A stretch of DNA of 37,121 nt, taken from the NCBI GenBank assembly GCA_030265585.1, contig JAJDGJ010000005.1, forward strand, positions 15,001-52,121. Reading direction: 5' to 3'. The DNA comes from Erysipelotrichaceae bacterium OttesenSCG-928-M19. GTDB lineage: Bacteria > Bacillota_I > Bacilli_A > JAJDGJ01. The position numbers and the translations under genes are program-made. This document shows, piece by piece, positions 15,957 to 34,746 of the stretch (position 1 is its first letter; each line of letters begins with the position of its first letter). The notes below the pieces were generated by a model that saw only the letters and a list, made by a program, of their open reading frames with translations, was not told the origin of the DNA and searched no databases.

Positions 15957-17066
15957 ATGATTTTAAATAACTATTACAATTTAAATAGTTCAAATACTAA
16001 TGAGCGAATAAAAACACTAATTAATAATTTAGATAATGGTCTAAACTTATCAAAGGACCAGTTTTTAGACTTGTTAAATAATTTTAATTATGAATTACTA
16101 CCTTATATACAGGATTTAGCTTTTAAGAAAAGAAAAGCAGTTTATCATGACTCAGTTTATATAAGAGGCTTGATTGAAATTTCAAATTATTGTAAAAACA
16201 ATTGTTATTATTGTGGTATTCGTAAAAACAATGATGATCTTGAAAGATATCGTTATAATAAAAATGAAATTTACCAAATTGTTGATTATGCTTATCATAA
16301 TGGCTATAAAACAATTGTTTTACAAGGTGGAGAAGATGATTATTATAGTGATGATTTATTAATTGAAATTTTAACTTATTTAAGAAGTAACTACCCTGAT
16401 TTAGCATTAACTTTATCACTAGGTGAACGTTCTTATGAAAGTTATTATAAACTGTATCAGGCAGGTGCAAATCGCTATTTGTTACGACATGAAAGTGCAA
16501 GTGCTGAGCACTATAGTAAATTACATCCTCAAGAAATGAAATTAACTACAAGAATAAATTGTTTAAATGATTTAAAAACAATTGGTTATCAAACAGGTGC
16601 TGGTTTGATGGTTGGTTCACCTTACCAGACTAATAATGATTTGGTTGATGATTTATTATTTCTCCAATCTTTTCAACCTGAAATGATTGGAATAGGTCCT
16701 TATTTAAATCATCCTAAAACACCTTTTAAATCGTTTAATAATGGTGATATAAATCACGTATTAGTTATTTATGCTCTAGCAAGATTAATCTGTCCTGAAG
16801 CTTTAATTCCATCAACAACAGCAACTTCTAGTTTAGCAAGCGACGGCCGTTATCGAGCTCTTCAATCAGGTTGTAATGTAATTATGATTAATCTATCATT
16901 ACTTGATAAAAGAAAAAATTATAGTTTGTATGCTAATAAAACATATGTTGGAGATGAATCTCAAGAATATCTTTCCTTAATAAAAGCTGATATTGAAAAG
17001 GCCCATTTAAAAATTAATTTTGCAGTTGGTAATCATATAACAAGAGAGGTAGATAACAATGAATAA
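15957..17066 (+). CDS. hydE: HydE, [FeFe]-hydrogenase H-cluster radical SAM maturase
   Basis: Radical SAM enzyme of H-cluster assembly, acting with HydG and HydF to build the diiron subsite with its azadithiolate bridge. The 369 residues carry the radical SAM CX3CX2C motif at C79, C83 and C86 (EISNYCKNNCYYCGIR), then LERYRY, QGGEDDYY near 125, GERSYESYYKLYQAGANRYL, and the HHPKTPF-like stretch NHPKTPF near 258. These fit HydE better than BioB or ThiH. The end overlaps hydF by 8 nt. Its presence says the cell makes an [FeFe] hydrogenase; neither the hydrogenase nor hydG lies in this window. Confidence 0.93.
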   Translation: MILNNYYNLNSSNTNERIKTLINNLDNGLNLSKDQFLDLLNNFNYELLPYIQDLAFKKRKAVYHDSVYIRGLIEISNYCKNNCYYCGIRKNNDDLERYRYNKNEIYQIVDYAYHNGYKTIVLQGGEDDYYSDDLLIEILTYLRSNYPDLALTLSLGERSYESYYKLYQAGANRYLLRHESASAEHYSKLHPQEMKLTTRINCLNDLKTIGYQTGAGLMVGSPYQTNNDLVDDLLFLQSFQPEMIGIGPYLNHPKTPFKSFNNGDINHVLVIYALARLICPEALIPSTTATSSLASDGRYRALQSGCNVIMINLSLLDKRKNYSLYANKTYVGDESQEYLSLIKADIEKAHLKINFAVGNHITREVDNNE

Positions 17067-18255
17067 TAACAATAATAAATTGGATAAAATTCCTTCTCTA
17101 ATTCCAAGTGTGGTCTTTGTTGGAAAAACAAATGCTGGTAAATCTAGTTTAATTAATGCTTTAACTAATCAAGATATTTCGATTGTTAGTGATATAGCTG
17201 GGACAACAACTGATGAAGTAGTTAAGCGTTTCGAATTATTAGATGCTGGCCCAATTAATATTATTGATACTGCTGGTTTAAATGATGATTCTCAATTAGG
17301 TCAACAAAGAATTAATAAAACCAAAAAGGCAATGAAAAGAGCTACTTTATTAGTTTATCTTTGTGCGGTAAATGAAGTTCTTGATTTAACTGAATATGAA
17401 AAATATCCTGATCACAAATTATTAGTATTTACAAAAATTGATTTATTAGATAAAACCGAATTAGATAACTTAAAACAATTACATCCACAAGCTTTGTTTG
17501 TTAGTAATTTTAATGAAGAGGATATTACAAAGTTTAAAGTTGCTTTAACAAAGTTAATAAGTATATCTGAAAAGCATTTATTGGAAAATATCACTTTGCA
17601 ATTCAATAAGATTGTTCATGTGATACCAATAGATAGTGAAGCACCTAAAGGAAGGTTAATACTGCCCCAAATGCAATTAATCAGAGAGTGTTTAGACTTT
17701 GATATTATTTCAATTGTATTAAAAGAAAGTGAACTTGAACAATATTTGATTGATAACGATGATATTGGTTTGATTGTTACTGATTCTCAAGCTTTTAAAA
17801 TTGTTAGTGAAATAAATAATAATCGATTTCCTTTAACTTCTTATTCAATTCTACAAGCTAATCAGAAGGGAGATTTAGAATACTTTGTAAAAAGCATTCC
17901 GTTTTTACATTATTTAAAAGAGGGGGCACATATATTAATTATGGAATCCTGTTCTCACAATGCGTCACATGAAGATATTGGACGCATTAAGATTCCTAAA
18001 ATGTTAAAAGAAATTATTAAAAAAGATTTTACTTATGATTTTACAATGGCCCATGATTTTCCAGATGATTTAAAAAAATATGATTATATTGTTCATTGTG
18101 GTTCATGTATGCTAAGCAGTACAATAATGAAAAAAAGAGTTAGACAGGCTCAAGAATTACATCTTCCAATGAGTAATTATGGATTGATTATTGCTTATTA
18201 TAATGGTATATTAAATGAAGCAATAAATATTTTTGGTATAGAGAGAGTGAATTAA
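17059..18255 (+). CDS. hydF: HydF, [FeFe]-hydrogenase maturation GTPase
   Basis: Scaffold GTPase on which the diiron subcluster is assembled before transfer to apo-hydrogenase. The N-terminal GTPase domain has the P-loop GKTNAGKSS (about 22-30), G2 AGTTTDEV, G3 DTAG, and G4 TKID near 130. The C-terminal FeS domain carries the HydF signature C298-x-H300, then 45 residues, then H346-C347-x2-C350 (HCGSC). The start overlaps hydE and the stop abuts the next ATG with no spacer, so the three genes form one translationally linked unit. Confidence 0.94.
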   Translation: MNNNNNKLDKIPSLIPSVVFVGKTNAGKSSLINALTNQDISIVSDIAGTTTDEVVKRFELLDAGPINIIDTAGLNDDSQLGQQRINKTKKAMKRATLLVYLCAVNEVLDLTEYEKYPDHKLLVFTKIDLLDKTELDNLKQLHPQALFVSNFNEEDITKFKVALTKLISISEKHLLENITLQFNKIVHVIPIDSEAPKGRLILPQMQLIRECLDFDIISIVLKESELEQYLIDNDDIGLIVTDSQAFKIVSEINNNRFPLTSYSILQANQKGDLEYFVKSIPFLHYLKEGAHILIMESCSHNASHEDIGRIKIPKMLKEIIKKDFTYDFTMAHDFPDDLKKYDYIVHCGSCMLSSTIMKKRVRQAQELHLPMSNYGLIIAYYNGILNEAINIFGIERVN

Positions 18256-19026
18256 ATGAAAAGAAATCGATTAGTATTAATAGTTTTATTAGTAGCTATA
18301 ATTGCAATGATTTTATTAGTTGTTAGAGATGTTAACACATCAAAATATCTTGAAAATAAAGGTAAATCAGCAGTTGGTGATGGTAGTGATATAATTGCTA
18401 TTATTGATAGTGGTGCAAATATTGAACAAGTTAATTATGATAAAAAACTTAAAATTACTAGTTATAATGCCATAGATGGATCAGATGATATTACTGATGA
18501 AGCAAGAAGAGGTACAATGCTTTTTAGTTCACTTTACAATGATAATTATAGTATGGACTTAGAAAATGATGTTATGTTGATAAAAGCTTTTGATTCATTA
18601 AATGATATCAGAGTTGGTAATGTAATTAAGGCTCTCAACTATGCTTGTGATAACAAAGCAAGTGTTGTAAATTTAAGTTTTGAGATACCTGCGGATAGTA
18701 ATCTTGAGGAAACGATTAAAACTTGCCAATTTAAAGGAACAACAGTTGTTGCAGCTAATTTTAATAAAGATGAACTAGGCTTTCCTGCTAATATTAAAGA
18801 TGTTATTTCTGTCGATTTAGTTTCTTCAACAGTTGATAGTAGAGTTAAAGTTGATATGTCAGAACAACAGGTATGCTTAGATAATGTATGCAAAAATAAT
18901 AACCATATTGACTTAAGTACTGCTTATGTTTCTGGCTATTTATTAAACTTTAAAGATAAACAAAAAGAAAGTAATAATTTAGTTTTAAAACCAAGTTATA
19001 ATATATCTAGAATTGATAAAAAATAG
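18256..19026 (+). CDS. Membrane-anchored subtilisin-like protein, probable pseudoprotease
   Basis: This 256-residue protein has one N-terminal membrane segment (about 6-23, after a basic MKRNR) and an extracytoplasmic domain that follows the S8 subtilase order: IIAIIDSG with D51 at the catalytic Asp place, RRGTMLFSSL where active enzymes have HGTHVAG, then ALNYACDNKASVVNLSF, then GTTVVAANFN with an Asn at the oxyanion place, then GFPANIKDVISV, and finally LSTAYVSGYLL where GTSMAxPxVAG is expected. The catalytic His is Met88 and the GTS motif is not canonical, so proteolysis is unlikely. It starts directly at the hydF stop and is the last gene of the hyd unit. Two cysteines at 207 and 212 could form a disulfide. 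The role is unknown; fold assignment is by pattern only. Confidence 0.75.
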   Translation: MKRNRLVLIVLLVAIIAMILLVVRDVNTSKYLENKGKSAVGDGSDIIAIIDSGANIEQVNYDKKLKITSYNAIDGSDDITDEARRGTMLFSSLYNDNYSMDLENDVMLIKAFDSLNDIRVGNVIKALNYACDNKASVVNLSFEIPADSNLEETIKTCQFKGTTVVAANFNKDELGFPANIKDVISVDLVSSTVDSRVKVDMSEQQVCLDNVCKNNNHIDLSTAYVSGYLLNFKDKQKESNNLVLKPSYNISRIDKK

Positions 19027-19049
19027 AGAACAAACGTTCTCTATTTTTT
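19023..19049. terminator. Bidirectional terminator between hyd operon and alr
   Basis: Stem ATAGAGAAC / GTTCTCTAT with an AAAC loop. T-runs flank it on both strands, so it can end the hydEF unit from the left and the gntR-alr unit from the right. It overlaps both stop codons. Confidence 0.85.
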
Positions 19050-26503: not shown

Positions 26504-26580
26504 GTTGTAGACCTCATTCTACAACCGCACTAAAAAGGTTTAAGAGGCTAGGCCCACCTTAATGGCGAGTCTGAGAAAAT
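26504..26580 (+). ncRNA. L21 leader, ribosomal-protein operon cis-regulatory RNA
   Basis: Untranslated leader between a strong promoter and rplU. It has the 5' hairpin TTGTAG...CTACAA (26505-26523) followed by AAAAAGGTTTAAGAGGCTAGG and CCACCTTAATGG. Position upstream of rplU-prp-rpmA and this layout fit the Rfam L21 leader of Firmicutes, thought to bind L21 for feedback control. A covariance-model search was not possible here. Confidence 0.65.
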
Positions 26581-26598
26581 ATAGGAGGTGTGTTAATA

Positions 26599-31147: not shown

Positions 31148-31152
31148 GAAGA

Positions 31153-31305
31153 TGTTAAGGGGCATAAAAAATTCCTCAAAATAAGATAAAGGGAACATGT
31201 GTCAAGATTGTGGTGTGCATACTTAACCATTTTGTTAAGAAGCCTAAAATAACTTGTAGTGTACCCACCTGAAAATATTCGGGATTTATCTTTGCCCTTT
31301 AGCTT
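31153..31305 (+). ncRNA. ssrS: 6S RNA
   Basis: 6S RNA mimics an open promoter and sequesters sigma-A RNA polymerase. The ends pair as a long closing stem: GGGGCA near 31160 with TGCCCT near 31293, and AAGATAAA (31183-31190) with TTTATCTT (31285-31292). A terminal hairpin CTTAAC-CATTTT-GTTAAG is followed by AGAAGCCTAAAA and then a CCCACCTGA...TCGGG segment. These match the order seen in E. coli 6S RNA (AGAAGCCUUAAAA, then UUCACCUUGAA). It ends with a T-rich run. Borders are approximate. It is not translated. Confidence 0.85.
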
Positions 31306-31326
31306 TTTTATTTAGGAGATTAGATA

Positions 31327-34619: not shown

Positions 34620-34649
34620 GTAAACGGAAGTTAAATTAAATATAAACAC

Positions 34650-34735
34650 TACTTTGCAGGGGAACTAGAATTTAGTTGAGAAGGTAAAACCTGACCCTTA
34701 GAACCTGTTAGTTAATACTAGCGTAGGGAGCATGT
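34650..34735 (+). promoter_or_regulatory. TPP (THI-box) riboswitch
   Basis: The two conserved aptamer halves are visible: GCAGGGGAAC...GTTGAGA on the pyrimidine-sensing arm and ACCCTTAGAACCTG...TACTAGCGTAGGGAGC at the end. This is the classic thi box. A terminator follows at 34747-34778 and thiT after it, so thiamine pyrophosphate would stop thiT transcription. Confidence 0.93.
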
Positions 34736-34746
34736 TATCAAAAAAT

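Follow-up and report, generated by a model that had tools for sequence, protein, structure and literature searches.

A predicted membrane-anchored pseudo-subtilase maintained by purifying selection directly downstream of hydF

In the window, by which we mean the whole 37,121-nucleotide stretch of DNA analysed here, the gene for the [FeFe] hydrogenase maturation GTPase HydF is followed without a gap by an open reading frame that resembles a subtilase of family S8 with a ruined active site. This raises the question of what such a protein is, whether it is being kept, and whether its position betrays a role in hydrogenase work. The features that bear on these points are collected in Table 1, in which HydE and HydF are identified by NCBIfam equivalog models. 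As the original prediction had it, the ORF starts exactly at the hydF stop codon: TAA at 18253-18255 is followed directly by ATG at 18256, a junction from which translational coupling between hydF and the downstream gene would be possible. A sister species of the same genus (G001) carries an ortholog with 54% identity, also of 256 amino acids (L009:9916-10686), directly after hydF in the order hydE-hydG-hydF-S8. The equal length of this ortholog, together with the purifying selection described below, rules out a chance ORF, and 18256-19026 is thus a real gene.

Table 1. Coordinates of the features discussed, with the evidence for each
Feature	Position	Strand	Evidence
hydE, radical SAM maturase	15957..17066	+	TIGR03956, 441.9 bits, above cut-off
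hydF, [FeFe] hydrogenase maturation GTPase	17059..18255	+	TIGR03918, 419.5 bits, cut-off 325.55
Pseudo-subtilase, membrane-anchored, 256 aa	18256..19026	+	ORF, profiles, PDB sequence matches, AF2/Foldseek, G001 ortholog
Predicted membrane helix, residues about 7-24, after MKRNR	18274..18327	+	sequence read; predicted topology
Asp51, catalytic Asp position kept (IIDSGAN)	18406..18408	+	alignments
Arg85 at catalytic His position (RGT for HGT)	18508..18510	+	alignments; Arg in G001 too
Cys207-x4-Cys212	18874..18891	+	alignment
Asp219 at catalytic Ser position	18910..18912	+	alignments; Ala in G001, Ser in G003
Hairpin, perfect 13-bp stem, 4-nt loop, A-rich/T-rich arms	19019..19048	.	fold -15 kcal/mol, z -6.3

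The operon itself appears to have been rearranged. Unlike the order hydE-hydG-hydF seen in G001 and in two genomes of the sister genus (G002 and G003), hydE and hydF of the window have no hydG in between and overlap by 8 nt (17059-17066, ATGAATAA), and HydF begins with extra N-terminal residues (MNNNNNKLDKIPS versus MEKIPS). The overlap ATGAATAA and this extension look like traces left when hydG was deleted; the assembly of the window genome, which is 62% complete, contains an [FeFe] hydrogenase gene but no hydG. At the other end, the hairpin lies between the pseudo-subtilase gene and a convergent alanine racemase gene, with a similar hairpin 3' of the G001 ortholog. It is absent from the list returned by a consensus terminator scan, and is likely a bidirectional terminator for the hydE-hydF-S8 transcript and the alanine racemase gene. 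Elsewhere in the window, Rfam models matched a TPP riboswitch (34648-34746), a 6S RNA (31149-31309) and an L21 leader (26513-26582).

That the protein has the S8 fold is established, with modest precision, by profiles and by structure prediction. The Pfam Peptidase_S8 model alone places it slightly below threshold (21.1 bits, cut-off 21.8, E=2.2e-4), a borderline score, and recognizes the G001 ortholog at 45.7 bits, above the cut-off. The S8 motif order that had been read from the sequence is real, being backed by the best NCBIfam match, a QhpE-type subtilase model (1.3e-13), by a match of the protein on its own to the PDB subtilase 1dbi (2.9e-6), and by a three-sequence profile against PDB subtilases (1.9e-18). 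Close sequences in the data number three only. The alignment given to AlphaFold2 was restricted to the window protein and the related-locus proteins and had three rows. The resulting model is of middling confidence (pLDDT 72.5, pTM 0.69), with central strands and helices above 90. When it was compared with the PDB by Foldseek, only S8 subtilases appeared among the best 50 matches (E from 2e-10, probability 1.00), at TM-scores to subtilisins of 0.48-0.60 (about 0.55) and an rmsd of more than 8 A.

The active site is where the protein departs from its family. In subtilisin the catalytic histidine is His64, the first His of HGTH; the second, His67, is non-catalytic. The comparison took in about 35 S8 domains, from the class and from Lysinibacillus. 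In this alignment Arg85 falls at the catalytic His position, and Met88, which had originally been taken for it, aligns with His67, where relatives whose triad is intact often have Met as well (HGTM); the assignment to Met88 is thus rejected. The suggestion that LSTAYVSG replaces the GTS motif holds in that GTS is lost, but HID-LSTAYVSG aligns with GTS-QATAIISG, such that HID stands in place of GTS and the Ser position is Asp219. The GT preceding the Ser position is lost in the window, G001 and G003 proteins alike, and the oxyanion Asn region of the window protein has a deletion of about 2 residues, its aligned position being uncertain. The window and G001 proteins alone have lost both His and Ser; every other compared domain that covers the region retains the two. 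Nor is there a catalytic His elsewhere in the fold, because the sole histidine of the window protein, H217, is not conserved in the sister species. With neither an Asp-His-Ser triad nor a GTS motif, and with Arg and Asp at the His and Ser positions, the protein is, judging from these alignments, very probably catalytically dead, as had been supposed.

The proposed membrane anchor is likewise supported: MKRNR is followed by 18 hydrophobic residues, and the protein consists of this single predicted N-terminal membrane helix and a bare S8 domain whose core begins at residue 46, with the helix of the AlphaFold2 model spanning residues 3-37. By the positive-inside rule the anchor is predicted to be N-in, C-out, which would place the S8 domain outside the cell. 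Four cysteines (131, 157, 207 and 212) are conserved in the alignment of the window, G001 and G003 proteins and could form disulfides or a metal site.

Neither copy contains a stop or a frameshift at 54% identity. For the ortholog pair the NG86 method gives dN 0.38, dS 1.21 and dN/dS 0.31, values that are rough since dS, at about 1.2, is near or above 1; for neighbouring genes of the same genome pair dN/dS is 0.33 (nif3), 0.35 (trmK), 0.30 (dnaG), 0.34 (hydE) and 0.30 (hydF). The gene is constrained about as strictly as its ordinary neighbours and is under purifying selection, and the match with hydF and hydE therefore speaks for a maintained pseudoenzyme, not debris.

Starting from the S8 fold, the two lost catalytic residues, an ortholog that shares both losses and the position after hydF, and purifying selection, all of them computed directly, we consider it probable that the gene encodes an exported single-pass pseudo-subtilase kept by selection as a binding module, and that its position behind hydF reflects a lineage-specific gene-order event. 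The S8 domain would be displayed outside the cell behind its single-pass anchor and, being inactive, would act as a non-catalytic module that binds peptides or proteins; it is because an inactive domain outside the cell is under selection that we read it as a binding module. It may serve as a decoy or sensor, or as partner of another envelope protein, in the general manner of CspC and CspA, and we identified no ligand or partner for it. Its place after hydF would give co-transcription, with no biochemical link to H-cluster assembly needed.

Inactive subtilases are known in bacteria, namely CspC and CspA of Clostridioides difficile. In these, two of the three triad residues are replaced, CspC having D105 (the Asp is kept), T170 and G485 (PMC6636752). 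The window protein resembles them in its subtilase fold, in the replacement of two triad residues, and in that the loss is confined to a single lineage, with the triad intact in relatives of that lineage. However, Csp proteins act in spores and carry, besides a prodomain, a jelly-roll insert of about 130 residues, whereas the window protein, a bare S8 domain of 256 residues in all behind a membrane helix, has neither prodomain nor insert. With an S8 domain, lost catalytic residues and a maintained gene, it joins the pseudo-subtilases, a known kind, its inactivity being deduced from the residues; it is not a Csp protein.

Where such a protein comes from bears on a first alternative, namely that it descends from anchored mini-subtilases that process secreted peptides such as bacteriocins or RiPPs, and now binds a peptide uncut, for example in self-protection. 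A tree of S8 domains groups the proteins of the window, G001 and G003 (97/94) and, within that clade, pairs the two copies devoid of His and Ser (100/98); the clade lies close to further small anchored S8 proteins and joins L015 and L071 at 95/98; the deeper joins are, however, unsure because of long branches, which weakens the argument from the tree. The small anchored proteins (Lysinibacillus L071, L015 of G112, L068 of G180) share an N-terminal anchor or lipobox and a bare S8 domain in 260-297 residues; they differ in retaining Asp, His and Ser, in having an acidic residue where the oxyanion Asn would be, and in their gene neighbourhoods. Asp or Glu at that position, together with kept triad positions, is found in L015, L031, L068 and L071 and may, from these sequences, be a mark of the subgroup. 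Some of the nearest small anchored S8 genes have neighbours that may point to peptide processing: at L015:675-2280 and L067:4923-5999 the S8 gene follows a Gly/Trp-rich ORF of bacteriocin-like look (at L067 there is also a 67-aa hydrophobic ORF resembling an immunity protein, and the S8 gene has an internal TAA), and at L068:4804-6886, possibly a RiPP cluster, it adjoins a PapB-like radical SAM peptide maturase (9.7e-36). The bacteriocin identity is, however, a reading by eye, family models having matched none of the bacteriocin-like ORFs of L015 and L067, and no such precursor, exporter or maturase lies next to the window gene.

The top NCBIfam matches, the leader peptidase QhpE, mycosin and PatA, point in the same direction. 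QhpE belongs to the operon for quinohemoprotein amine dehydrogenase, where this subtilisin-like leader peptidase works as a single-turnover enzyme and stands next to a radical SAM maturase (PMC7876137); it is similar in being a small S8 domain of about 220 residues. In contrast to the window protein it is active and cytoplasmic; the window protein scores 50.8 bits against an equivalog cut-off of 165, and its neighbours are hydEF and alanine racemase, with no qhp genes in the window. Mycosin (of type VII secretion) and PatA/PatG are secondary profile matches far below their cut-offs, and no type VII or cyanobactin genes lie beside the window gene. On balance we regard descent from peptide processing with retained peptide binding as unlikely.

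A second alternative, about as unlikely, is that two sister species inherited what was once an active protease, and that its gene is now decaying in both and will eventually disappear. The triad is present in the G003 relative and lost in the window's genus, and where the window protein has Asp at the Ser position the ortholog has Ala, as decay would have it. But the dN/dS equals that of functional neighbours, and both copies are exactly 256 codons long, open, and followed by a hairpin. 

The G003 relative itself, with 37% identity, lies beside purine-synthesis genes, away from hydF; its GTS motif reads SN in place of GT and the oxyanion Asn is missing, yet it retains Asp, His and Ser, and could, going by these residues, represent a midway stage of active-site loss. 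It matches record JAISTP010000016.1 (MAG Md513_bin19), and a termite gut, that of Mastotermes darwiniensis, is given as the source of another MAG of the Md513 series (PMC12483993). A single-sequence scan of genome contigs found no relatives, and an alignment-based scan found the G003 record and one Lysinibacillus protein only; a phylum-wide search gave none closer than those from the class search, and plasmid and phage searches yielded one weak, uninformative match each. No other S8 gene, and hence no candidate catalytic partner, was detected by Pfam in the 62%-complete window assembly, in a search that also misses the window gene, so that a distant S8 gene could escape it.

Third, the protein could connect H-cluster maturation, or the hydrogenase, with either the membrane or a signal from outside, and be kept in the hyd operon for that reason. 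In favour of this, the spacing to hydF is zero or negative in both species of the genus, a likely terminator stands behind the gene, and the gene is still in place although the window operon appears to have lost hydG. Its distribution speaks against it. In a class sample of 395 genomes, an S8 gene adjoins hydF in just two of the 25 hydF loci found, those of the window and G001; both belong to one genus, the adjacency is therefore genus-specific, and co-occurrence with hydEFG is not conserved across lineages. The order is represented by four genomes, two of the window's genus and the two of the sister genus; the latter have full hydEGF and hydrogenase genes with no S8 gene beside hydF. In G002 no relative of the pseudo-subtilase was found at all and pheS follows hydF. 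In G003 the gene that comes next after hydF, on the same strand, encodes an LPKTG-type surface protein unrelated to the pseudo-subtilase (L065:5416-8159). Moreover, the S8 domain is predicted to lie outside, whereas the maturases act in the cytoplasm. Among the hits listed by a literature search, none joined hydF with subtilases. Conservation of the arrangement thus extends to the sister species, which shares the His and Ser loss and the position after hydF, for which reason this is not a one-genome oddity, but no further among the hydF loci of the class. The functional link to hydrogenase originally proposed is left unsupported, and we hold it to be quite improbable; a specific version, in which the pseudo-subtilase would sense an outside peptide or redox state through its four conserved cysteines and tune [FeFe] hydrogenase maturation via co-expression or contact with HydF, is more speculative still and very improbable.

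That the protein is still a hydrolase, with substitute residues around Asp51, Arg85 and Asp219, is barely credible, for although both lost positions carry charged residues in the window protein, non-canonical catalysis is rejected because the ortholog has Ala at the Ser position, leaving neither nucleophile nor acid conserved there, and the GT of GTS is also lost and no His is conserved.

A link to hydrogenase would have been the surprising part of this locus, and it is unsupported across lineages. What the pseudo-subtilase does offer is a clean case of a protease that loses its active site yet stays under selection. A midway stage of this loss is possibly still visible in the relative from the sister genus, and the route from protease to pseudoenzyme may thereby become testable.
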